Below are positions 49,288 through 63,881 of a DNA stretch of 64,000 nucleotides, piece after piece. Both the position numbers and the translations under genes were made by a program. The DNA lies in NCBI GenBank assembly GCA_013373425.1, contig JABXHW010000048.1:1-64000 (forward strand). Direction: 5' to 3'. The first letter of the stretch is position 1. Every line of letters begins with the position of its first letter. The notes beneath the pieces are model-generated. The model saw nothing but the letters and a program-made list of their open reading frames with translations, did no database searches and was not told where the DNA came from. Source of the stretch: Flavobacteriia bacterium (GTDB lineage: Bacteria; Bacteroidota; Bacteroidia; Flavobacteriales; Schleiferiaceae).

Positions 49288-52200
49288 TCAATTCGCTAAA
49301 CTCAAGGTAAGTCGGAAGCCCGCTCGCACTTGATTGGTAGGGAATGCCTGAGAGGTCTTGTACGTAGTGATATTCTGATCGTAATAAAGCATGGCGGTCA
49401 TCCTACGCGAGAGCTTGTAAGTAGCGTTGAATTCAATATTCACCAATCGCTGACCTGCTGTTACCTGAATATCGCCCTGTGCGATACGACGAAGCGTTGT
49501 TGTATTGTCGGTGATTCCCACTTTCGCCGCCAACTCCAAGTTGTTGTTTACAGCCGTTCTACCTACCCCTGTACGGATCAAGTTGAACTTCACATTTTGA
49601 ATCACATAACCGGCTCCAATTTGAATCTTATGCCCCCTTGTGTCCGTGATAATCTGGTTAGCCAAACTCAATGCAATGTTTCGATCTCGGTTGTAATCGA
49701 GTGTGAAGGTGGTATTGTTCTTCATGCGCATATTCACCCCAATAAATGGTGCGTAGCGTTCTTGCATGGTTACCTGACTCACTTGATTCTCCGGCATGAA
49801 GTCTCCTGATGGATCGAGTGGATTCACCGTAGGATCTTCCAAAATCGCCTGCTGACGAAGCAAGTTGGTTTGATAGTTTGATACGGCCAATGTCGAGTTG
49901 TACTTAGAAGACAGAGCGAAGTTGCTAAAGTTCTCTCGAACCCATTCAATTCGCATGAGTCCGGTGTAGTTGATGCTCCAGTTTGGCTTCGGAATGCTAG
50001 GTAGCTCCCCAAGCGACAAGCCCACTTGGTCTGCAGGCGCTCCGCCATATGCCGAAATGAAGGCCGGAATCATCGCTTGTTGAGAATATACCGAGTATCC
50101 AACATATCCACTGTCCGAACGATTCTCCAAGGCGTAATCCGGATCAACTCCGCTGTTCGCGTAATCTTGCGCCAAACGCTCAGAGATAGTAAATCGATTC
50201 TCAAGGAACTGGTCGTAAGCAGCAGACATGTTCTCATCCGTAGACTCGAAACTCGTGTTCAACGCCATCCAAGAAATGGTGTACGTGTTCACTCCCATCG
50301 GATTCAAGAATTGGAAGCCTGTCCCAAATGCATCGCGCAAGAGCTCATCATCTGGGTGGTCACCTACAAATCGGAAGATAGAGCTGTATTGATATCCTGT
50401 CTGACGATTAAAGTTCAAGTCAATTCTCAAATCCTTAATCGGCTCAATCGTGCCTCGGATCTGTAAGTTCGTATTGTTAGTCTCGGTATAGTTATTAGGC
50501 TGACCTCTTCGCTGAGTGAGGAACTTATCATCAGCCAATCCCGCGGCTTGTTCCAATTCCAACTGCGCTAACTGTTCTGCGATTGGAACTTGAACACCAA
50601 AGGCAAATGGAACGCCTGGCGTCCAACCATTCACATCACTCATTCCAAAGAACGAAGGACGTGGCAGGAAGCCCGGCAACAAGGTACCCTGATTCAAGGT
50701 ATAGTTACCTGATACGTTCTTCACGGAAGTTAATAGCCCCACTCCAAAGCGAGCGAGCTTCTTTCCAAAGCCTTCGGAATTCGGATCTTCTTCTTGATTC
50801 TCGTCGTCTCCGTTTTGAGGATTCTGACCTGGAAGCTGTCTTCTAACCGGACCACCTCGGCGACCACCTCTTCCTCCTGGCTCCTGACTCAAGCGAGTAA
50901 TGAACGGAAACTTGTTATAGAGCGTCGACATGCTCAAGTTCACGTTCCCTTGCCAAGCCGCTGAGTTCTGAATGGTATTACCATAATTCAGAGCGGTGTC
51001 TTGCTGCGCTCTGAGGGAAATAGCTTGCCAATCGTAATCACCTGAATAGCGAATACTCGCATTGATGAACTCCAAGTATGGAATCTTATCAATCGGAAGC
51101 TGCCAGGTTAAGTTCAGGGTTTGGTGGAACTGGGTAGGGCGACCAAAAGTTTGTAACTGATTCACCAAGTACTCTTGGGCTTCAGGGTTGTAGACACTTC
51201 CAGGAAGCTCATCAAATCTCACCCTGTGAATTGCATTGTAATCGAGTTTCAAACGCTGAGTAAGGTCCCATGCTAGGTTGTAATTCCTATCCATGGTAAA
51301 GTTCTTATTCCAGTTTTCAGGAAGAGAGAATCGAGGATCAGGATTGTCGATGTTTCGCATCTGCAGCTGCTGATAGTTACGCATCAAATCCCCTCTGAAC
51401 GAAATACGCTGTGGATAATACTGGAAGTTGAAGTCACGTATGAGCGCCAAATACTGACTACTAATTAAATTCTCAAACGGCTTTACTGGTGTAGGGTTGG
51501 TTTGATAAGAGTAGTTCAGTGTACCTCTATGGTCAATTCGTCTATCGAGTTGTGTATTAATATTTCGGCGATACACTTCGGAGAAGCTATAGCTCACTGA
51601 GAAGTTCTCGATATCGTACACCTGTGGTCGTTGTCCACTGCTGCTGTTCCTCTCCTTTCTAACGTTGGTGAAGTTTATATCCCGACGAAGTGTGTAGTCT
51701 TGAGCTGCTTGTCGAAGGCTATCGCGCTGAGAGCTATTCTCGAGATTCTCTAGAGCATTCGGGAACTCAATATCTGGATCGAGCGGGTTGAACATCGGAT
51801 TCTGCCACTCTTCAGCCAAGTTGAAGAAGGCTGGAATTCTAATGCCGTAATCTTTGTTGAAGAATTTCCCGAGTTCAACGTTCGTTTGGAAGTTGTAGCT
51901 CAAGGCTTCAAATTGATTTCTATCCTGTGGCCCCTGATCCAAGCTTCCGTAACCTACAGAACTATAGTTACCCGTCATGGATACATTCGCGAAGTCGGCC
52001 ATCTTAGCCGTCATTCTCGCGTTGGCTGCCCAACCGCCCCTATTGTCGAAGTCGGTCATGCGCAATTCGTTCACCCAAATTTCGGCACACTTCGGCAGAC
52101 CATCATCTGAGCTGTTTAGGGTGCGTTTCGGGTTCCGGATACCAATCATGAAGGTTCGGATATTTCCGAGGTTCGGACTACCGAGAACGCTTACTGTTCC

Positions 52201-55200
52201 CCCTGCTCTATCTACAGAATAGAGTGTAGAACGATTCATGTTTGGATTGCCCTGCATCGCTCTGTCGCGCTCAAGTTTTACTTCTTTAAGCAGGTCCAAA
52301 CTCAAATCAACATTGTTTGCAGTAGGCCAAATTTCAGATGGAGTGGTTGTACCCCAAGGAGTAACTTGGAGCGGCAATTCATATTCGTAGTAGTTCAGGT
52401 TGTAATCAGATCCAATTCGAATAAACATTCGAACGTCTCCATCTTTAAGGTCTTGAGCTTGAGAGCCGGCTTCTGCGTGAACGAACATTTTCAAGTTGCC
52501 GTACATACGCATATCGAGCTGCAAATTGCGGAAAACTGCTCGAGCGTCTCCATCATCAAGGTTACAGGTGTAAAGCGACAAACTTTGCTCGTTCTCCTGT
52601 ACGGTTGAAGTATTTCCGAAGAGAATCTGGCGGTCAATTCCCGGAGGAAGAGTGTACGGAATCGGGTCACGAGAACCGTTCTCTTCAAGGTTAACTGCGT
52701 TCACGTTGAATACAGTTCCGTTGTCGGTATCAACTGGAACCTGTTCGTTCAGGACATTCAGGTCGAAACGATAGCGTCTCCACTCACCGCGAACCAAATC
52801 CAAACTTGCAAAACGAAGTACGGTTGGATCTTGGAATCCGTGCATGAACATACGGATGAAGCGGATTGAACGGAAGTCGCTAATCTGACCGACGGTGCGA
52901 TCCGGTTCGAAGATTGGAATCTTAAACTGCACCCAGCGTACCGGACGAGTTCTTCCGTCTGGAGTCGGGGCCACTGTTTCAAAGATGTCCGTGATGTAGT
53001 TCTGTCCAACGGTCTGAAGATCCTGAGGCCGAACAGACACCTTGTACTGGAAGTAAGTCTCGGTCTTGCTCAGTGTCAGATCGCGGTTCACGTCCTCCTT
53101 ATCTGGGAGGTTCGTTGCGAAAGCAGGGAATCCACCAATCGTTGCAGTAGTTGAGTTTCCCTGTGTACCGTTGAAGCTGGCATAACGCTCGAGGATGTCT
53201 GCATTAGCGTTGTCTAGTCCTTCCCCTCTATAATAAACGAAGTCATCCGCCGCTGGGTCTGCATTGGCTCTAGCAAAAGCCTGTGAAGCCTGACCGAAGG
53301 CCGCCTCTACACGTTGCGGGTACGGTAGAAATCCATTCAAACCCCATGTTCTTTCGTCCTCATTGGTCAATCCATCCAATCCCAAATCCTGATTCGGGCG
53401 AGCCTGTGGATCATTGTCGAATGCATCAACAATAGGCTGATTTCGTGATGTATATCCCCAAACTGAGGAATCGAGTGCTGTTGTAGATCCATCGGGTGGC
53501 AATCCGTTCTCGAAACTTTGGCGACCGTCTTTCAGGATATCTTCTGATACGCTACCCAAGTTAAAGTAGAGATCTCCACCTGGATTCGCAGGGTCCTCCT
53601 CGAATGGAAACATCATCCAAAATTGGATAAACTCAATATTTTGTTCTTCGAAGTTGTTCACCTGAAGCGGACGCATGATACCGCCCCAACGGGTTTCAGG
53701 TGCATTCAATTCACCGTTTGAGTTGATACCTGCTGAGAAGTTGGTAGGCTCAACGTCGAAGTTATACTGACCTCGCTCTTGCGGATAGAATGCCATATCG
53801 AACATGGCGATGGTTCGCACTGTGGTTCCCTGTTGCAAACTTGTGTTAGGGAAAACCTCTTTAATCGGTACCTGACGAACTCTGTGATCTGAAATCAGCT
53901 CTTTACTTGAGGCGATGTTGCTGGGTGTCTGCGCATTGTTGGCATAGAATACCGGGTCGATGATGTACCAAGCTAGTCTTGCTCTGTTGTAGTTGTAGGC
54001 CAAGTTTTGACTCAAATCCGCTTCCGGGAAAAGGTCGGGTTGATTTGCTGGTGTACTGGCAAGCAACCAGCTGTTGGCGCCACGAATATCGATATTGGTC
54101 TGGCTGCTTTCGAAGTCATCGATGTAGGTCGTTGCTCCATCATCGCCAATCTTGATTCCATTTGGAGAACCAGGAATCATATGGGCGAATTCACCTTGGA
54201 AGGTAATACTCGAGGGCTCGCGTGTATCAATGAATGGAATCGCATCCACTGCTCTTGTGAGGAACGGCGCATCCTGACTATACTGAGTGTTCAAGCCCCA
54301 AATGGTATTCGCAATCGGCTCATCCCCCAAATTCACTTTCTGCGTAAGTGGACGTTCGCGCAAGTGGAGAATAGCGCCACCTACGTTGAAGTTATCCGAT
54401 ATGCGATGGTCGAAGGTAGCACCAGCAAAGGTCTTGGTCTGGAAGTTAAAGAGGCTGTTGTTCTCAAAGTTTACATTGATAGGCACGCCGGAATTGAGAA
54501 TCCCTTCATTGATGATGCGTACCTGTCCCAAGTTATAGTCAACCGTGTAATCTTGATTCTCTACCAACTGGGCACCTCCAGCAGAAACGGTTACAGAACC
54601 AGGTGGGATATTGAATGCATTTAGCTGGATAACAGATCCAGAAGCTGATTTATACTGACCACGAATTAAGAATTTATTCAGGGCCGTTTGATCCTGCGCT
54701 CGGAATCGCGTGGAGTCGTACAGCTCTTGGAAGACATATCGATCTCTCGCCGCCTGCGTGCTCAGGTTGTTGGCGAGGTGCTCTCCAAATGGCTCGAGAA
54801 CTGGGAAATAAATTCTACCGTTCTGAGGATTGATAGTTCTTCCATCGACGAAGTCAAATAAACCATCAGGGAAAGGATCATTGTTGTAATTCAATTGATC
54901 CAATCGCATCACATTCAGAAGTAGAGTATCCTGCAAGTTGGAATTCGGAAGGAATGGAATCGGAGTTCCAGTTTCATCGTTTCGGTAGAGAATCTGAAGT
55001 CTGAAGTCTTCCCTGCTCACCTGGAAAGCTCCCAATGAATACACGTTCTTCATCATCAAGTCCCAGATAGGCAACTTCACGTCGAGAATTGTACTCTTCA
55101 ACATTTTCAAAATGAGCGTATTCGGAGCGTTTACACCATCAGTGGAGAATTCACCTACTTGATAAGTCTGACCGAATGCCGTGTACTGGAACGAAACTGC

Positions 55201-56622
55201 AAGAACCTCATCTTGATTCAGTGCTTCGTTCAAAGAAATGTAACCGAGTTGAGGATCGAGTTTAAATTGAGAAGGCTGAAGCTTGCGCGCATTTGTGAGC
55301 TCAACATATTCCGATGACTCGATGAATCCAGCGGCATTTAATTCTGCGTTCACGCTTGAGATATCTCGAACGCCTGGATATTGACTCGCTAGCTCAGTAG
55401 GGTTCAATTGGTTCGCCGCGTTATTCGGGAAGAGCGAGGTTGATGAGCCGGGGAAGATGGCAGGACCAGGAAGGGGTCGGTTTCCATCTCGATAGGCTGC
55501 GTCTTGTTGTTCCCCCAAGTCCATGAATGCTACGATGTTTCTCACATCCTGTGTCACAGAACGGCGGTTCGTCACCCACACTTCTACTTTCGTAATCTGA
55601 ATTGGAGAATTTACGACGGGCATTGAGCTCAACCAACCTTCGTAATTATCTCTGAAGTATTGGCTCAAGAAGTAGTGACGGTTTGCTTCATAATCTATAG
55701 CCTCAATTTCGAACTCCTGTTGAGTAGCTCCACCTTGAACACTAATCGACTGGGATTGTGAGCGTTGTTCCGAGAACACCGTCGTCACCATTGTATTCCC
55801 GAATTGGAATTTCCCTTTTACCCCGAACAAGCTTTGGGCGCCTGTTATCAATGTGGAGTTTACTGGAAGCGAAACGTTACCCATTTCAAGGTTCTTGATG
55901 ATATCATCTTCCTGACCTTGAAATTCGAGTTTCATCTTATTCTCAAAGGCAAAGGTGGCCTCTGTATCGTAATTGGTGCTAAGTTGAAGTCGCTCACCAA
56001 TCTTACCCGTGATATTCATTTGAATCCGCTGATCGAAATCAAAAGCAAAAGTTCTTTGGTTTCGAACTGGGATAATTGGGTTTTCAATCTTTTGATAGCG
56101 ACCACCGAGACTAATTTCAGCCGTTCCTTGAGGACGAATCTCAATGGTGTTACCACCAAAGATGTCGGCGAAGGCTTCACTGCGAATATTGATATCGGGG
56201 ATTAACCCTTGTGACTCTCTATCTTCACCATTACCTAAGGATTGGGAGCGTGAGGTTTGTTGAACGCGAGAAGGGAAATATTGAACATCGATTTCTTCGA
56301 AGGCTCTATCCCTGTATTGTTCCATTGTGAGATACTCGGGAGATCCAAATGGAACATTTCCGATATACTTTTGAATGGTGTAAAGACCAGTTGCTGGGTC
56401 GTAGGTAATCTCTTCTCGAACATTCGACGGATCGTTCAAGTACAACCCCCCGCTGGCACCGTTGGGAATAGGGTATCTAAGAGAATCTGGGTCACCTGTA
56501 TCCAAGGCTTCCATGAAGGTCGCTGCACGGACATTGAGCATTGTTTCATCCGAGGAAAAGGCCCAGATGAACGGCAACACAAAAAGTGTAGAAATGAGGG
56601 GTTTCGCGACTGCTAGCTTCAA
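49288..56622 (-). CDS. sprA: T9SS outer membrane translocon SprA (Sov)
   Basis: A 2444-residue giant outer-membrane protein. A signal-like N-terminus (about 1-23) is followed by repeated barrel and insert segments. Typical SprA stretches include [59 protein letters not shown] and [27 protein letters not shown]. SprA forms the 36-strand channel through which T9SS cargo leaves the cell. A low-complexity RGGRRGG plus acidic segment lies near residues 1910-1940. It starts 2 bases after ruvA and is probably cotranscribed; the order ruvA-sprA-gcvH-vanZ is one I recognise from Flavobacteriia. Confidence 0.96.
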
Positions 56623-56624
56623 GC

Positions 56625-57200
56625 CTAGAGTTTCTGAAGGGCGTTCTTAATAATGTTTTCTACAGTAGCATCCGGCGTTTGAGCGAGATGAGCTGAAACC
56701 ACTTTCTCTATGGCCTTGCGATTAAACCCAAGAATTTCGAGAGCGGCTATAGCTTCTTCTCTAGACGAAGATGGAGCGGTAACAGCACCTGACTCTGAGC
56801 CCAATCCAACTTTATCTTTCAAATCAACCACAATACGTTGAGCCGTCTTGGCTCCGATGCCTTTAACGCCTTTTAACAGCGCAATATTTTCTGATCGAAT
56901 CGCATTTTCTACTTCGTCGGGCAAAAGTGAGCTCAAAATCATTCTCGCTGTGTTTGCACCAACGCCTGAAACTCCGATGAGTAGTCGGAAAATCTCACGT
57001 TCTACTGGTTGAGCAAAACCGTATAAGGTCATGGCATCTTCACGAACAGCGAGGTGAGTGTAGACCATCACATTTTCGTCATCTCCGATTTGGGAGTATG
57101 TGGTCAAGGAGATATTGACGTAGTATCCGACACCGGCGCACTCCACAACTAAGTGAGTGGGGTTTTTCTCTACGAGTTTTCCTCTGAGATGGTGGTACAT
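56625..57200 (-). CDS. ruvA: Holliday junction branch migration protein RuvA
   Basis: A 191-residue RuvA. The N-terminal OB fold is MYHHLRGKLVEKNPTHLVVECAGVGYYV, tandem HhH motifs are LIGVSGVGANTARMILS and LLKGVKGIGAKTAQRIVVDLKDK, and a C-terminal domain III EEAIAALEILGFNRKAIEKVV binds RuvB. It is immediately upstream of sprA. A -7 element is 60 bases upstream. Confidence 0.96.
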   Translation of the reverse strand: MYHHLRGKLVEKNPTHLVVECAGVGYYVNISLTTYSQIGDDENVMVYTHLAVREDAMTLYGFAQPVEREIFRLLIGVSGVGANTARMILSSLLPDEVENAIRSENIALLKGVKGIGAKTAQRIVVDLKDKVGLGSESGAVTAPSSSREEAIAALEILGFNRKAIEKVVSAHLAQTPDATVENIIKNALQKL

Positions 57201-57359: not shown

Positions 57360-58064
57360 CTATCTAGCAATCACAACACGTTGTGCATCCTGCACACTTC
57401 CGTTCTGCATTGTTTGAAGCATATACACTCCAGATGGAACTTGACGAACATCGATAGCAACACGGTCGGCACCATTGATTTCTGTTCTGCTCACGGTTAC
57501 ACCTGCAAGGTTGGTAAGGCGAACGGTTCCATTTGAGAACTGCTCTGTGCTCACGTAAACCACATCACTTGCTGGATTCGGATACACTACCACCTTTCTA
57601 CCTTCGAATTCGATAGTAGATGCCGTTGGTGAAACGCTTACATAGAAAGTGATGTCCAATGAATCACTTGGATCTGCAGCGTTGTAAAATCTATAGATGA
57701 GAGAATCTTGAGCTGTAGCATTGTTGCCACGAATATAGATTCCAATGTAGAAGTCGGTATTACGCACTCCATTCTGAAGCATCACCCCACCGAAAGTAGA
57801 GCTGTCTGTACCCACACCATAGCAAAGGTCCCAGCAAAAATAGTTGCTATCTGCTACCCCATTAGAGCCATTGTAGATGCGTGCAACGTCGTAGGTTGCA
57901 TCGTTACCTGTATTCGTAATTCCGACGTGCGCCTTTACTTCGTGTAAGTATGTTGAATTGGCTTCGGTGTATGCATCGATGCTATTCAACTGCAAATTTT
58001 GCGCGACCGCAGTTCCGCTAAATGCCAGAGCCACAGTGAGAAAGCTTGCGTAAATCTTCTTCAT
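57360..58064 (-). CDS. Secreted protein with T9SS type A sorting domain
   Basis: A 234-residue protein with a signal peptide ending near GTAVAQ (residue 22). A beta-rich domain with one CWDLC pair follows, then the C-terminal T9SS sorting domain (about 158-234): VVYPNPASDVVYVSTEQF, VRLTNLAGVTV, VPSGVYMLQTMQNG, ending in KxxR-like VVIAR. It is likely exported through SprA/PorV/PorU and left on the surface or in the medium. No catalytic motif was recognised. Confidence 0.88.
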   Translation of the reverse strand: MKKIYASFLTVALAFSGTAVAQNLQLNSIDAYTEANSTYLHEVKAHVGITNTGNDATYDVARIYNGSNGVADSNYFCWDLCYGVGTDSSTFGGVMLQNGVRNTDFYIGIYIRGNNATAQDSLIYRFYNAADPSDSLDITFYVSVSPTASTIEFEGRKVVVYPNPASDVVYVSTEQFSNGTVRLTNLAGVTVSRTEINGADRVAIDVRQVPSGVYMLQTMQNGSVQDAQRVVIAR

Positions 58065-58161: not shown

Positions 58162-60114
58162 ATGAAGAAGCTTTACACCTTGTCATTGGCACTTTTGGCC
58201 ATGACAGCGTTTGGGCAAGCATCTCGCCTCGTTTTGTTCGAGGAGTTCACAGGAGAAAACTGTGGACCATGTGCAAGTACTAACCCAGGCCTCGATGCCT
58301 TGGTTCAAAGTAACCCAACAAAAATCTTGATGCTTAAGCACCAAGTGCCGATCCCATCAGCAGGACCAATCTACCTTGGTTGGACTACTGACGCAGACGT
58401 ACGTCGTCAATACTACGGAGTGAACAGTGCTCCTAACGGACGCGTAGACGGTGATGTAGTTGACCCTAACCAGTCAAGCCCTACTCACCCTGCATACTTG
58501 ACTCAGTCGATCATCGACAACAAGTCAGCGATCTCATCTTCGTTCAGCATGACAACTTCGCACACATTGTCATCTGACCTAGATTCAATTTTCATTACTG
58601 TTACAGTACAGAATGTGGATGGTTTTACTGTTAACTCTATGAGCGCAGGTTCACTTCGTCTACACGTAAACGTGATTGAAGAAGAAATGAACTTCGCATC
58701 GCCTCCGGGAACTAACGGTGAGACTCAGTTCTACCACGTTAGCCGTAAGATGTATCCTAGCGCTGCTGGTACTCAAATGGCGGATAGCTGGACTACCAAC
58801 CAGTCTCAGACTTTCACTTTCGCTGAGGAATTGCCAATGCACATCTACAACTACAACGAAGTAGGTGTTGTTGCATACATCCAAGAGAACGGAGACAAGA
58901 GCATCCACCAGTCGTCTTTCAGTGCAGCTGTTCCAGCTCCATCTAACATTCCTGACATGACTATCACTTCTGGCATCTCTGCTGGTAGCGATTTGTGTGC
59001 AGGTACTTTCGTTCCTGAGTTCACTATTGAGAACCTTTCTTCTGCTACTTGTACTAGCGCAGATGTTGAGTACCGCGTTAACGGTGGTGCTTGGGTTACT
59101 CAAGCATGGACTGGTAGCCTTGGTCAGAACGCAACTGCAACAGTTACTTTCTCACAAGCTACAATGAACCAAGCTTCTAACACTATCGAAGCTCGTGTTG
59201 TAAATCCAAATGGTAGCCGCGACGTGAACTCGTTGAACAACGAAATTACTCCGGTAGTATTGAACGTGATTTCACCAATCGTTGCTAGCTCACCTTTCGT
59301 AGCTAACTTCGAGAATGCTTCTTTGGGTCAGGTTCCAAACAACTTGATCTTGAACGATAACTCTGGTCGTGTATTTACAGTTGATAAGGGTATCGCGAGT
59401 GGTCTTACTTGGGAACTTGGTGCTTACGAAGAGTCTTTGAAGAGTTTCCGTTGGGACTTCTACACGATCCAAGCAGGTGAAGTATCTGAGTTGATCATGC
59501 AGAAAGTTGACATCAGCGGTGATAATAACACCAAGATTTACTTCCAGCACGCATACCAGCAGTACCAAACTTCAAACGATCAGTTGGAAGTAATGGTTTC
59601 TGATGACTGTGGTCAAACTTGGACAACTGTATGGAGCCGCTCAGGTGCCGCTTTGGTAACTACTGCTACTCCATCTAGCACAAACCGTCTATACCCACGT
59701 AGAGCTGACTGGTCTTACGACTTCGCTTACCTTCCAACTTCAATGCAAAGCTCTGACGAGTTGATCGTGAAGTTTGTTGGTACTTCTGACTACGGTAACG
59801 CAATGTACGTTGACAACATCGGCGTATCTGCAAACGCAGTAGGTCAGGAAGAAAACAGCTTGACTGATGCAGTATTGTTCCCTAACCCAGCTGACCAATC
59901 TGCTGAGCTTCGTTTCGAAGCACTTGAGTCTGGCATGGTTAACGTAACTGTACTCGACATGAATGGCCGTGCAGTGAACACTGTTTCACAAGACGTGTCT
60001 TCAGGTGTTCAGAGCATCAACTTGGATGTTGCTGAATTGCCAGCTGGTCTTTACATGGTTAAAGTTCAGCAAAACGATGCCGTATCAACTTTGCGCTTGA
60101 GTGTAACACACTAA
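58162..60114 (+). CDS. Omp28-like thioredoxin-fold secreted protein with T9SS sorting domain
   Basis: A 650-residue protein. A signal peptide ends at FGQ (residue 19). An Omp28-type domain starts at once with VLFEEFTGENCGPCAST, CxxC at Cys34/Cys37. Ig-like and jelly-roll domains follow (SLGQVPNNLILNDNSG; YDFAYLPTSMQSSDELIVKFVG), and the last 80 residues are a T9SS type A domain (LFPNPADQSAELRFEAL; LPAGLYMVKVQQN). Codon use is strongly biased toward AAC, GGT, TCT and GCT, suggesting high expression. ATG at 58162 chosen over a TTG 12 bases earlier. It leads the Omp28/TlpA/DUF6029 group. Confidence 0.9.
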   Translation: MKKLYTLSLALLAMTAFGQASRLVLFEEFTGENCGPCASTNPGLDALVQSNPTKILMLKHQVPIPSAGPIYLGWTTDADVRRQYYGVNSAPNGRVDGDVVDPNQSSPTHPAYLTQSIIDNKSAISSSFSMTTSHTLSSDLDSIFITVTVQNVDGFTVNSMSAGSLRLHVNVIEEEMNFASPPGTNGETQFYHVSRKMYPSAAGTQMADSWTTNQSQTFTFAEELPMHIYNYNEVGVVAYIQENGDKSIHQSSFSAAVPAPSNIPDMTITSGISAGSDLCAGTFVPEFTIENLSSATCTSADVEYRVNGGAWVTQAWTGSLGQNATATVTFSQATMNQASNTIEARVVNPNGSRDVNSLNNEITPVVLNVISPIVASSPFVANFENASLGQVPNNLILNDNSGRVFTVDKGIASGLTWELGAYEESLKSFRWDFYTIQAGEVSELIMQKVDISGDNNTKIYFQHAYQQYQTSNDQLEVMVSDDCGQTWTTVWSRSGAALVTTATPSSTNRLYPRRADWSYDFAYLPTSMQSSDELIVKFVGTSDYGNAMYVDNIGVSANAVGQEENSLTDAVLFPNPADQSAELRFEALESGMVNVTVLDMNGRAVNTVSQDVSSGVQSINLDVAELPAGLYMVKVQQNDAVSTLRLSVTH

Positions 60115-60148
60115 TAAGTCTGTTCGGCACGAACATTGAAATGATTCA

Positions 60149-60179
60149 GAACACCGGCAGCACCACGTTGCCGGTGTTC
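60149..60179 (+). terminator. Strong hairpin between the Omp28-like and TlpA genes
   Basis: GAACACCGGCA (60149-60159), a 9-base loop, TGCCGGTGTTC (60169-60179): a perfect 11-bp stem. There is no real T run after it, only CTCATTTAATA, so it may be a processing or mRNA 3'-protection element as much as a terminator. Confidence 0.55.
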
Positions 60180-60197
60180 CTCATTTAATACAATACC

Positions 60198-60683
60198 ATG
60201 AAACGAATCTTATTCATCCTTAGCTTCTCGCTTTTCGCAATGGCCGCTCAGGCACAAATCTTCCCAGAAGTTCAGATTAAAACTATGGGTGGTGAAGCAT
60301 TAGACGCAGCGACTATCTCACACGACGGTCCTGTAGTAGTTAGCTTTTGGGCTACATGGTGCTCGCCTTGTAAAAAGGAATTAGATGCCTTGAACGAGTA
60401 TTACTACGACTTGCAAGATGAAACTAATGTGAAGGTGATTGCCATCTCTATTGACGATCCTAGAACAGTTCAGCAAGTAGTGAATACCGTAAACTCCCAA
60501 GCTTGGGAATATGATGTTTATCTCGATACCAACAGCGACCTACGTCGTGCGATGGGGGTAAACAATGTACCACATACAATGGTGTACAACTCCGCAGGAG
60601 AATTGGTGTACACAAGCAACAAATACGCCCCAGGTGATGAATACCATCTAATGGAGGTGATTAGAGAAGCAGCAGGAGAGTGA
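60198..60683 (+). CDS. TlpA-like thiol-disulfide oxidoreductase, exported
   Basis: A 161-residue protein with a signal peptide ending near AQAQ (residue 20). The thioredoxin fold has VVVSFWATWCSPCKKELDAL with Cys55/Cys58, a central strand VKVIAISIDD and the cis-Pro loop NNVPHTMVY. It is likely a periplasmic reductant or a TlpA/ResA-type enzyme. Its stop overlaps the next GTG start, so it is translationally linked to the DUF6029-like barrel. Confidence 0.93.
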   Translation: MKRILFILSFSLFAMAAQAQIFPEVQIKTMGGEALDAATISHDGPVVVSFWATWCSPCKKELDALNEYYYDLQDETNVKVIAISIDDPRTVQQVVNTVNSQAWEYDVYLDTNSDLRRAMGVNNVPHTMVYNSAGELVYTSNKYAPGDEYHLMEVIREAAGE

Positions 60684-62368
60684 AAAAGTTAGCACTTGCA
60701 GGCTTAGTAGGATTGTCAGCAATCTCAAGCTTGCATGCACAAGAAGGTCAGGACAACTGGGGGACCTTGCATGGTAATTTCCAATTCGACGGACAGCTTT
60801 ACGTTCGTGATGAGGCGATTGACCCTGCAGGTGAGTTTTATCCTGACGAGCGATTCCTTGGTCAAGGATTCGCCAACTTTAATTATACCAAAGGTAACTT
60901 CAGAGCGGGTGTTCGCTATGAAAACTATCAGAACGTAATTCTCGGATTCCCAGAAGGTTTTAGAGGAGAAGGAATTACCTACCGTTACCTTCAATACGTC
61001 AAAGATGAAATTGACGTAACCGTTGGAAATTTTTACGAGCAATTTGGCTCGGGAATGATCTTTAGAGCTTACGAGGAGCGAGGCTTAGGTCTCGATAACG
61101 TAATGGATGGCGTGCGTATTCGATACCGTCCTACACAAGGCATCCAACTGACAGGAATTCTTGGTAAGCAGAGAGTTTACTTCCAAAAAGCACCAGGTGT
61201 AGTCAGGGGCATCAATGCTGATATCAGCTTGAACGAACTCCTACCAGCAATGGCGACAAGTTCGTGGCGCTTGAGTGTCGGAACGAGCTTTGTAAGTAAG
61301 TTCCAAGAGGCAAACGATCCAGTCTACAACCTCCCAGAAAATGTGGGTGCGGCTGCAGCTAGATTCAATCTACAAAAAGGTGGATTCCTTTGGACCACTG
61401 AATACGTTTACAAAGCGAACGACCCATCTTCTGATAACGGATTGATCTTCAGAGATGGACTTGGCTTCCTCACACAGCTCAGCTATTCACAGCGTGGATT
61501 TGCCATAAGCGCAAACTACAAGCGCTTGGATAACATGGCGTTTAGAAGCGACAGATACGGAAAAGAATTCGAGGCATTTATCAATTACTTGCCACCAACT
61601 ACCCGACTTCACACCTATGCGCTACCAGCGCTATTCCCGTATGCCACGCAAATCAATGGTGAGGTTGGACGACAGTTTCAGGTAGCGTATAAATTCGATA
61701 GAGGCACCTTCCTAGGGGGTCGCTATGGAACGCACGTTTCTGTGAACTACGCCGACGCCTATTCCATCTACAAATCGCCAATTGAAGGAAGTACTATCGG
61801 TGAATCTGGTACGGATGGCTATGAAACCGATTGGTTCCAGCAAGGTCAAGTGCACTACTACACAGATTTTGACGTGATTGTAACCAAGAAGATTTCGAGA
61901 GAATGGAAAGTGATCGCTTCTTATTACAACTTCGCTTACAACAAGTCCGTTTTAGAAGATGGTGTATCAGATCAGGTTATTATGAATGACCCAAGTGTTC
62001 AAGAAATCGCTTATGTGAATGCCGGTGTGCTCGAGTTGATTTACAACTTCAAACCGCTTCACAGTATTCGTGCTGAACTTCAAGGAGCATTTTCCGATCA
62101 GTACAGAGGTGACATGGCCATGTTGCTATTGGAATATGGCTGGAGCCCTCACTGGTTCTTCTCTGCGCAGGTTATTTCCAATTATGGACATACCGATCCC
62201 GAAATGCGGTTGACCTACCCTATCGGTTCTGTTACGTACTTCCAAGACCAGACGAGAATCCAGGTTAGCTATGGACGTCAACAAGCAGGTATCTTCTGTG
62301 TAGGTGGTATTTGTCGTGTTGTACCTCCAAGTAACGGTTTGAGTATTTCAGTAACAACCAACTTTTAA
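60680..62368 (+). CDS. DUF6029-like outer membrane protein
   Basis: A 562-residue exported protein with a signal peptide ending near SLHAQ (about residue 21). It is rich in barrel strands with aromatic ends: GNFRAGVRYENYQNVILGFPEGF, YRYLQYVKDEIDVTVGNFYEQFGSGMIFRAYEERGLGLD and a C-terminal IQVSYGRQQAGIF followed by CVGGICRVV. I associate this pattern with the uncharacterised DUF6029 family. Start is GTG overlapping the TlpA stop (GTGA). Role unknown; its cysteine pair near the C-terminus (GICRV) may be a redox target of the neighbours. Confidence 0.82.
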   Translation: MKKLALAGLVGLSAISSLHAQEGQDNWGTLHGNFQFDGQLYVRDEAIDPAGEFYPDERFLGQGFANFNYTKGNFRAGVRYENYQNVILGFPEGFRGEGITYRYLQYVKDEIDVTVGNFYEQFGSGMIFRAYEERGLGLDNVMDGVRIRYRPTQGIQLTGILGKQRVYFQKAPGVVRGINADISLNELLPAMATSSWRLSVGTSFVSKFQEANDPVYNLPENVGAAAARFNLQKGGFLWTTEYVYKANDPSSDNGLIFRDGLGFLTQLSYSQRGFAISANYKRLDNMAFRSDRYGKEFEAFINYLPPTTRLHTYALPALFPYATQINGEVGRQFQVAYKFDRGTFLGGRYGTHVSVNYADAYSIYKSPIEGSTIGESGTDGYETDWFQQGQVHYYTDFDVIVTKKISREWKVIASYYNFAYNKSVLEDGVSDQVIMNDPSVQEIAYVNAGVLELIYNFKPLHSIRAELQGAFSDQYRGDMAMLLLEYGWSPHWFFSAQVISNYGHTDPEMRLTYPIGSVTYFQDQTRIQVSYGRQQAGIFCVGGICRVVPPSNGLSISVTTNF

Positions 62369-62379
62369 AAGGACTCGCT

Positions 62380-63267
62380 ATGAAAAGAACACTTCTCTTC
62401 TTATCAATCCTTCTCGGGTTGTTCACCTTGAGCATCGTCTCATGCGATGTTATCGAGGATCCTATTAAAGACAATGGGAATAACGCGGATTGTACTAAGA
62501 CGCGAACGGATACCATCAATCCTCAAACTACATTCCCAGACACCGTGTATCGCAACGTTCTTGTAGAAGACTTCACAGGACACCGTTGCAAGAACTGTCC
62601 GAAGGCTACAAAGGCTATCAAAGACATGAAGGACGTCATGGGGGATGATCTAGTGGTTCTTGCAATCCATTCTGGTGCATCAACCTTCACCGCCCCAAAC
62701 CCACCGGACTATCCTACCGATTTCACGACTACTGAAGGGGATGAAATTGCAAGTTGGTTCGGAGGAGTGCCCGCGCAACCGATTGGAATGGTAAATCGCG
62801 ATGATTACTCACAAGGCAGTATTTCTCATTTCAAGATTTACTCGCAGTGGAATAGTATCGCAACGCCATACCTAAGTGAAGCAGCAATTGCTGAATTATG
62901 GTCGATGAGTTATGTATCAGGAACCTGCGTAATTGCACACGCACAAACTACCTTCTTAGAGGATGTAACTGGAGATTATAGTATCGCGGTTTACCTGACT
63001 GAAGATGGAATTGTTGCTCCTCAGCTTCTTCCTGATGATACGCGAGATGCCGATTATGTGCATAACAACGTGTTTAGAGATGCATTTACCTTCGCATTGG
63101 GAGAATCTCTTATAACAGGAGGTGCTACTAGAATGACGAACGTGCATCGCAGCTACCAATTGGAAATCAATCCAGATTGGAATCCAAATAACTTGAAAGT
63201 TGTAACGGTGTTGTTTGATACAGATAGCCGTGAAGTTTTACAAGTAACCGAATGTGACGTAGAGTAA
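62380..63267 (+). CDS. Omp28-related lipoprotein
   Basis: A 295-residue lipoprotein with lipobox SIVSC (Cys22). After a short linker with Cys38 comes the Omp28 domain: YRNVLVEDFTGHRCKNCPKA with CxxC at Cys70/Cys73, and later VVLAIHSGASTF and GGVPAQPIGMVNRDD. The fold is thioredoxin-like. It lacks the T9SS domain of its larger paralogue at 58162. It is 11 bases after the DUF6029-like gene and overlaps the next gene as TAATG. Confidence 0.9.
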   Translation: MKRTLLFLSILLGLFTLSIVSCDVIEDPIKDNGNNADCTKTRTDTINPQTTFPDTVYRNVLVEDFTGHRCKNCPKATKAIKDMKDVMGDDLVVLAIHSGASTFTAPNPPDYPTDFTTTEGDEIASWFGGVPAQPIGMVNRDDYSQGSISHFKIYSQWNSIATPYLSEAAIAELWSMSYVSGTCVIAHAQTTFLEDVTGDYSIAVYLTEDGIVAPQLLPDDTRDADYVHNNVFRDAFTFALGESLITGGATRMTNVHRSYQLEINPDWNPNNLKVVTVLFDTDSREVLQVTECDVE

Positions 63268-63881
63268 TGCTCAAACGCGCATCCAATATTCTTGTTTGGC
63301 TCCTCCTCACCAGCAGTGTGGGTTGGAGCCAAACTACTTTTAATGGGGGCTTCTTCATCGGGCTTACGAGTAATCAAATTGATGGAGATGGAATCGGTGG
63401 TTTTGACCACACCGGAGCTCAAGGCGGATTCTTTGCCAATAGAGATTTCAACGATACTTGGTCGGCACGCATTGAGCTACAATACATCTGGAGAGGCTCA
63501 CGTGAAAAATTGTCTGATACTTCCAGCTTCTATCGCACCGATCTCCACCAGATATCCGTACCTATAGTAGCGGAGTATCATTTCACTCCTAAAATATCAA
63601 TAGAAGCAGGTCCAAGTCTTGATATCAATGTCATCACCAGCGAAGAAGATATTTATGGTGACCTCGGGCCAGACCCTCCCTACTCTCCCTTTGTTCTCAA
63701 TTCTATTATCGGAGTGAATTACGCCATCACCGAACATACTATTGTGAACCTGCGTAGTCATTATTCCATTACTTCGATAAGAGACGTTCGAATAGTGCGA
63801 AGAGCTCCAGGACTCTTTGGGGATTGGATCAGCGGATCACATACTGCGAGTCTGACTTTGGCAGTCTACTTCTACTTCTGA
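63267..63881 (+). CDS. Outer membrane beta-barrel protein (PorT-like family)
   Basis: A 204-residue protein with a signal peptide ending near VGWSQ (residue 20). It is followed by TTFNGGFFIGLTSNQIDGDG, WSARIELQYIWRGSREK, HFTPKISIEAGPSLDINV and a final strand SLTLAVYFYF. This fits the small PorT/outer-membrane-barrel superfamily. It is the last gene of the Omp28/TlpA/DUF6029 operon and its 3' end overlaps the convergent queG by 10 bases. Specific role unknown. Confidence 0.82.
   Translation: MLKRASNILVWLLLTSSVGWSQTTFNGGFFIGLTSNQIDGDGIGGFDHTGAQGGFFANRDFNDTWSARIELQYIWRGSREKLSDTSSFYRTDLHQISVPIVAEYHFTPKISIEAGPSLDINVITSEEDIYGDLGPDPPYSPFVLNSIIGVNYAITEHTIVNLRSHYSITSIRDVRIVRRAPGLFGDWISGSHTASLTLAVYFYF

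Follow-up and report, generated by a model that had tools for sequence, protein, structure and literature searches.

The window analysed here is a 64,000-nucleotide stretch of DNA from a Flavobacteriia bacterium of the Schleiferiaceae (assembly GCA_013373425.1, contig JABXHW010000048.1, positions 1 to 64,000 of the forward strand). Near its end lies a group of genes for a TlpA-type thioredoxin-fold protein, a DUF6029 outer-membrane beta-barrel, two Omp28 proteins and a relative of PorA of Porphyromonas gingivalis, two of the products carrying the C-terminal tail that directs proteins to the type IX secretion system (T9SS). The features are, with E-values for family matches:

57360..58064, minus strand: PorA-like, T9SS-sorted, immunoglobulin-like (Ig-like) protein, 234 amino acids (PF18962 tail, 2.3e-12)
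about 57822-57836, minus strand: cysteine pair C77/C81 (FCWDLCYG) of the PorA-like protein, from the sequence
58162..60114, plus strand: T9SS-sorted Omp28 protein, 650 amino acids, CGPC motif (PF11551, 2.1e-10; PF18962, 3.7e-12)
60198..60683, plus strand: TlpA/ResA-like thioredoxin-fold protein, 161 amino acids, WCSPC motif (PF00578, AhpC-TSA/TlpA, 8.2e-19)
60680..62368, plus strand: DUF6029 outer-membrane beta-barrel, 562 amino acids, cysteine pair C540/C545 (PF19494, 1.3e-167)
62297..62314, plus strand: CxxGxC hairpin (C540-C545) of the DUF6029 barrel, between its last two strands (alignment and AlphaFold model)
62380..63267, plus strand: Omp28 lipoprotein, 295 amino acids, CKNC motif (PF11551, 7.6e-26; lipobox by eye)
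63267..63881, plus strand: small outer-membrane barrel, an accessory member (PF13568, OMP_b-brl_2, 2.9e-14)
49288..56622, minus strand: SprA/Sov T9SS translocon, a neighbour and not a member (internal PF14349 match)

An initial annotation had described five same-strand genes with these motifs, and their coordinates, the CGPC, WCSPC, C540/C545 and CKNC motifs and the Pfam families all match. The tight linkage it claimed for the last four genes is also there: a GTGA overlap and an 11-base gap are seen in the sequence, and the last junction is a one-base overlap deduced from the open reading frame (ORF) coordinates. The five-gene list holds, but the divergent PorA homologue at 57360-58064, with a cysteine pair of its own, had been overlooked.

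Gene order, phyletic co-occurrence and gene fusions tie TlpA, DUF6029, Omp28 and the PorA homologue to one another, and each of the four carries a redox-type cysteine pair. The initial annotation had staked its case beforehand on the genes being found together elsewhere, and the arrangement recurs across Bacteroidota in the 160 DUF6029 loci that we examined. These loci comprise 80 from a sample of 296 genomes across the phylum and 80 further ones from named genomes, for which there were at least 579 confirmed matches; the first 80 cover all but one of the 80 genomes with DUF6029 in the sample, with two loci from G180 and none from G227, which is below the family cut-off. Upstream sequence was present in 157 loci, and TlpA adjoins or is near DUF6029 in 148 of them. 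It lies on the same strand no more than 600 bases upstream in 140 loci (131 by ORF and 9 by tblastn; greedy ORF calling had hidden some TlpA genes beneath antisense ORFs, and tblastn recovered these), is fused to DUF6029 in one, is one gene apart in two (L068 and L072) and is adjacent but divergent in five. The median gap between the two genes is 5 bases in the 131 ORF-called loci. Directly downstream of DUF6029, Omp28 was found in 113 of the 160 loci by a strict profile that misses divergent Omp28, an earlier profile having drifted onto TlpA. The PorA-like family, Ig-like and mostly with a T9SS tail, has a member within 6.4 kb of DUF6029 in 79 of the 160 loci; the median distance is 1.6 kb.

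Whole genomes were compared with presence called at E <= 0.001. DUF6029 (PF19494) occurs in 80 of the 296 genomes, and 58 of the 62 genomes with Omp28 also have it (16.8 expected; Fisher 4e-38); the family cut-off was passed by 78 of these 80 and 56 of these 62. The PorA-like family occurs in 55 genomes, 44 of which have DUF6029 (14.9 expected; Fisher 2e-20), a count favoured by its profile, A5, having been built from proteins near DUF6029; both Fisher values ignore phylogeny. SprA_N, present in 228 of the 296, was found in 79 of the 80 genomes with DUF6029 as against 149 of the 216 others, so the group occurs with the T9SS. In a second order, 147 of 344 genomes have the PorA-like family. All 38 positives selected from these 147 (small, possibly Porphyromonas-like genomes, and strong matches on long contigs) have DUF6029, compared with 4 of the 20 negatives checked out of 197. 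Of those four genomes, two have a completeness below 90% (G318 and G326), one has a divergent match (G323), and G230 has DUF6029 and no PorA-like match. Recurrent linkage and genome co-occurrence together rule out a chance cluster.

The product of 57360-58064 is a homologue of P. gingivalis PorA, because a structural match and a profile match with aligned cysteines lead to the same PDB entry. In the AlphaFold model (predicted local distance difference test score, pLDDT, 90.4) the best structural match of the N-terminal domain is PorA-N, 6kjk (Z 12.2, 119 residues aligned of a chain of 134, root-mean-square deviation 2.8), the first of 50 VIA-align matches. The family profile A5, run against the whole PDB, found 6kjk_A alone (E 2.9e-5), with the cysteines aligned; Foldseek of the model gave mostly generic Ig folds. 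The sorting tail scores 47.5 bits with PF18962, against a gathering threshold of 27. An alignment of 49 PorA-like sequences with a mean column identity of 16% has no invariant column other than C77 and C81; a smaller domain alignment adds one invariant asparagine. In a separate survey a PorA-like ORF was found in 58 of 59 loci and both cysteines were present in all 58; from the locus set, L280 (a 101-base filler) was omitted, and L242 gave no PorA-like ORF in one profile pass.

Loci L256 and L257 have TlpA, DUF6029, Omp28 and the PorA-like gene in that order on one strand, and of all loci searched L257 matched a PorA fragment best (phmmer 5.7e-6); a search of 23 genomes from the G027 family with this fragment gave no match. 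In P. gingivalis W83, PG2173, the next number after PG2172 (PorA), is described as an Omp28 lipoprotein (PMC9722745); the three papers found to mention neighbouring P. gingivalis locus numbers deal with unrelated topics. From the order in L256 and L257 and the locus numbers, we predict that PG2174 is DUF6029 and PG2175 is TlpA.

PorA-like genes were also seen in other settings. In L068, which has proteins of 478 and 495 amino acids, PorA-type domains are found both in tandem, with three cysteine-pair motifs in one protein, and joined to Omp28. Two other settings come from genomes without DUF6029. In genome family f9 (L282 and L290; also L283, L284, L286 and L291) the PorA-like gene lies between a BamD-type lipoprotein and an OstA-type gene, as judged by eye in L282 and L290. 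In four genomes of family f3 (L285, L287, L288 and L289) the PorA-like protein is short, 142-188 amino acids, and is flanked by genes for products of about 488-507 and 313-320 amino acids, the first tyrosinase-like, by eye, in L285.

Variable cysteine motifs would have counted against the initial annotation by its own criterion, and those of the other three families are conserved as well. TlpA has CxxC after an aromatic residue in all 131 ORFs beside DUF6029, and the adjacent Omp28 proteins have CxxC in 112 of 114; of the two exceptions, one is due to a run of N and the other to a truncated ORF. The barrel pair is present in all 79 sequences of alignment A3, from which L132 and L181 (cut at the edge) were excluded, and in 78 of the first 80 loci, the exceptions, L061 and L062, having ORFs that are broken or short. 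C540, V541, G542, G543, C545 and R546 are each invariant in the 79.

The window barrel matches its family over the full length (PF19494, 559.2 bits against a gathering threshold of 27, positions 1-538 of 538), and its AlphaFold model (pLDDT 94.1, predicted template modelling score 0.87) has about 24 strands, counted from the DSSP line. The model places the CxxGxC motif on a hairpin, 537-541/544-548, that joins the last two strands. Given periplasmic termini, strand parity would make this hairpin the last outward-facing loop. The closest folds among 50 VIA matches are the ushers FimD and PapC (Z 17.9 and 17.0); OprD-type porins score the same or slightly lower (OccK3, Z 17.0), with AlgE and OprD-type barrels at Z 14-17. 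FimD and PapC are themselves 24-strand barrels.

On the periplasmic side, the window TlpA has a signal sequence, by eye, and its profile matches are ResA/StoA/TlpA-like. DsbD genes adjoin the group in L035, L244 and L255, the first two confirmed by Pfam and NCBIfam. A Dsb-type oxidative pathway was not our first choice, as the TlpA matches are reductase-like and DsbD is the sole electron-transfer neighbour sought and seen.

The two window Omp28 proteins score 91.4 and 41.1 bits with PF11551, against a gathering threshold of 34.9. The lipoprotein falls just short of the Omp28 model NF033782 (148.6 bits, cut-off 150), which the L257 Omp28 protein passes (168.3 bits), and matches the Omp28-related selenoprotein NF045500 weakly. 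A lipobox-like pattern is present in 73 of the 114 adjacent Omp28 proteins, and several others look lipidated, with a different residue before the cysteine or a mis-called start. Long T9SS-type Omp28 genes, away from the position directly downstream of DUF6029, occur in 51 of the 160 loci by the strict profile, and T9SS-sorted Omp28 was rejected as the core of the system for that reason. In 18 loci of family f24 (L095 and L097-L113), which form a divergent DUF6029 branch, 31 other redoxins occupy the Omp28 position, all with CxxC and mostly with CPHC. Thirteen of these loci have both a short and a T9SS-tailed redoxin, two only a short and three only a tailed one, and pairs consist as a rule of one lipidated and one T9SS-tailed protein. 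Omp28 domain matches with one in-frame stop were seen in G031 (C41:85208-85687) and G041 (C6:3173-3682), the stops being TGA and TAA. Our literature searches found no function for Omp28 of Bacteroidota, and likewise nothing on Omp28 with a selenoprotein.

Two fusions join members of the group. In L042 TlpA and DUF6029 form a single protein of 667 residues, and in L068 a single chain combines Omp28 with a PorA-like domain and a T9SS tail. In L057, from G230, one protein contains two Omp28 domains and, between them, a cysteine pair; G230 alone among the 80 genomes with DUF6029 lacks SprA_N.

The fusions, the DsbD neighbours and the substitution of redoxins for Omp28 point to one thiol system running from periplasm to surface. 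A conserved and seemingly undescribed envelope thiol system, as the initial annotation proposed, stands; the relay through the outer membrane and the general role in folding T9SS cargo that it attached to this stay hypothetical, and the evidence favours one T9SS partner, the PorA homologue. Our preferred explanation, held tentatively and at less than even confidence, is that the group is an outer-membrane thiol-disulfide module which sets the disulfide of surface PorA through TlpA, DUF6029 and Omp28; we infer the electron flow, its direction and the signalling. TlpA would be reduced by an inner-membrane protein of the DsbD or CcdA type and would dock at the periplasmic side of the DUF6029 barrel. 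Movement of the CxxGxC loop, or entry of TlpA into the wide lumen, might then carry reducing equivalents through the barrel to the surface lipoprotein Omp28, with or without the T9SS-sorted Omp28. Omp28 would set the dithiol or disulfide state of surface PorA, and PorA bound to PorV and Sov would thereby be switched or kept usable, so that redox conditions would bear on the expression or assembly of the T9SS.

The published work on P. gingivalis gives this proposal its setting. PorA forms a complex with PorV and Sov, termed the most abundant Sov complex (PMC8754138). Deletion of porA leaves SigP undetected and PorK, PorL, PorM and PorU nearly absent, and its suppressors map to the kinase PorY (PMC7712824). 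PorA is placed upstream of PorXY-SigP, and the portion of that paper available to us identifies no mediator and leaves open how PorA signals from the surface to PorY at the inner membrane. The module may be this missing mediator. A stronger version, a porin-thioredoxin conduit giving the first thiol-electron transfer across an outer membrane, a thiol equivalent of MtrCAB, writing or reading the PorA disulfide on Sov so that extracellular redox controls the T9SS through PorXY-SigP, seems to us unlikely.

Several observations, besides the neglect of phylogeny in the Fisher values, weigh against the module. Nine of the 157 loci have no TlpA beside DUF6029 by either ORF calls or tblastn; in four genomes without TlpA at the DUF6029 locus, TlpA faces a PorA-like gene elsewhere (L293, L294, L295 and L301). 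DsbD was found in only 3 of 199 loci, with a single-sequence profile that CcdA-type proteins could escape. Although all 38 selected genomes of the second order have DUF6029, it lies inside the examined stretch in only 13 of 38 PorA-like loci of that order, so it is in the genome and often not next door; at the other loci the PorA-like gene adjoins T9SS-type Omp28 genes or none of the labelled families. Eleven genomes have a PorA-like protein and no DUF6029, and the cysteine pair is kept there, so the pair need not depend on the module. A possible third fusion, Omp28-PorA-Omp28 in L057, was read by eye from a CAGGQC segment and was rejected: PorA-like profiles gave 2.5 and 1.4 bits, the first elsewhere in the protein. 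If the barrel pair does face outward, as parity suggests, access for a periplasmic TlpA is left unexplained. The surface location of PorA, its binding to PorV and Sov and its control of PorXY-SigP have been described only for P. gingivalis.

The outward-facing pair also bears on the strongest rival, in which TlpA acts only during periplasmic maturation, as reductase, oxidase or isomerase, and sets the cysteine pairs of DUF6029, Omp28 and PorA in transit. A ResA/StoA/TlpA-like protein with a signal sequence among neighbours that carry cysteine pairs fits this, as does a barrel pair that would be beyond reach after insertion. However, Omp28 and its substitutes have CxxC motifs of their own, and many of them bear lipoprotein or T9SS signals, which exceeds what substrates need, and the TlpA-DUF6029 fusion would hold TlpA at the mature barrel. 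We regard maturation alone as doubtful, though as a serious competitor. The usher-like fold would fit another rival, in which DUF6029 is a dedicated, Sov-independent export pore for PorA, with TlpA and Omp28 managing the disulfide on either side. Ushers such as FimD and PapC carry Ig-fold subunits. That PorA is surface-exposed even in sov, porV, porK, porM and porT mutants (PMC7712824) would agree with such a pore, which is nevertheless quite unlikely: the usher match is one of barrel architecture only, at 11% identity and with OccK3 scoring nearly as high, and the 11 genomes with PorA-like proteins and no DUF6029 would lack the pore.

The same likeness to AlgE and OprD-type barrels is the starting point for reading DUF6029 as a polysaccharide-export or nutrient porin whose redox genes merely form its structural disulfide. 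An HHpred similarity to candidate polysaccharide-export barrels, with possible polysaccharide export, has been reported for DUF6029 (PMC9603273), and one neighbour in L038 is glycosyltransferase-like by eye. A structural disulfide, however, needs neither Omp28, PorA nor fusions; the neighbours were annotated for the labelled families only, which leaves room for polysaccharide genes, and we consider this porin improbable. Metal handling, with the cysteine pairs binding Cu(I) or another soft metal and TlpA keeping them reduced, is the least probable of the alternatives, and very improbable. TlpA and Sco proteins serve copper-site assembly elsewhere, and the PorA-like domain protein of L285 adjoins the tyrosinase-like gene, with three related loci similarly arranged. 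Against this, the available part of the P. gingivalis literature mentions no metal for PorA.

Parts of the proposed module resemble known systems. The window protein shares with P. gingivalis PorA (PGN_0123/PG2172) the N-terminal Ig-like domain, the T9SS C-terminal domain, its size and the aligned cysteine pair. PMC7712824 reports homologues of PorA from Porphyromonas only, whereas two samples, of 296 and 344 genomes, here yielded relatives in 55 and 147 genomes, respectively, in a recurrent neighbourhood and with an invariant cysteine pair; the terms 'disulfide' and 'cysteine residue' are absent from the main text of that paper. The DsbD/TlpA pathways of ResA and CcmG share the TlpA family and CxxC chemistry, and DsbD adjoins the group in the three loci named above. 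To our knowledge these reductive pathways end in the periplasm, whereas the TlpA of this group recurs together with an outer-membrane barrel and surface-type thioredoxin proteins. The MtrCAB system is a functional analogue only, with its periplasmic carrier, barrel and surface partner, the conduit role here being hypothetical. The Mtr complex chain 6r2q_B is among the Foldseek matches of the DUF6029 model, at rank 18 (TM 0.34/0.31), but MtrB is not among the 50 VIA matches, which limits the comparison to function, and no haem motif was seen in the proteins inspected. The Omp28 family (NF033782; NF045500) is here supplied with genomic partners. A further comparison is HBP35, which is called a T9SS cargo in PMC7712824 and reportedly has thioredoxin activity, to judge by the title of a paper cited there.

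As far as our searches go, what is new is the gene group, the breadth of the distribution of PorA relatives and the invariance of their cysteine pair; the parts themselves belong to known families. We found no description of the gene group, of a TlpA-T9SS-thioredoxin link, of a surface thiol relay or of a PorA disulfide in a literature in which subscription journals were thinly covered, so earlier work is possible; within the searches made, DUF6029 is named only in PMC9603273. The recurrent four-part module provides a context for DUF6029 and Omp28. It also gives named candidate genes and cysteines to two questions about PorA: its signalling to PorY, and its appearance at the surface without Sov, which PMC8754138, in the part available, leaves open. 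The export pore, if real, would explain surface PorA in sov mutants, and the module, if real, would bring the cell surface as well as the periplasm under thiol-disulfide control. This suggests that these Bacteroidota may control surface thiol chemistry, possibly tuning protein secretion. We know of no thiol-disulfide pathway at the cell surface.

The remaining features of the neighbourhood are less constant. Relatives of the small barrel (PF13568-type) occur in 22 of the 160 loci, and SprA-like ORFs in 28 of the 160 (29 ORFs). In the window, SprA/Sov lies on the opposite strand, three genes from the T9SS-sorted Omp28 gene, and between it and the PorA-like gene is one gene that by eye resembles ruvA, the two together occupying positions 49288-57200 of the window. 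The closest relative of the window DUF6029 barrel among the matches listed is that of Phaeocystidibacter luteus, at 85% identity.

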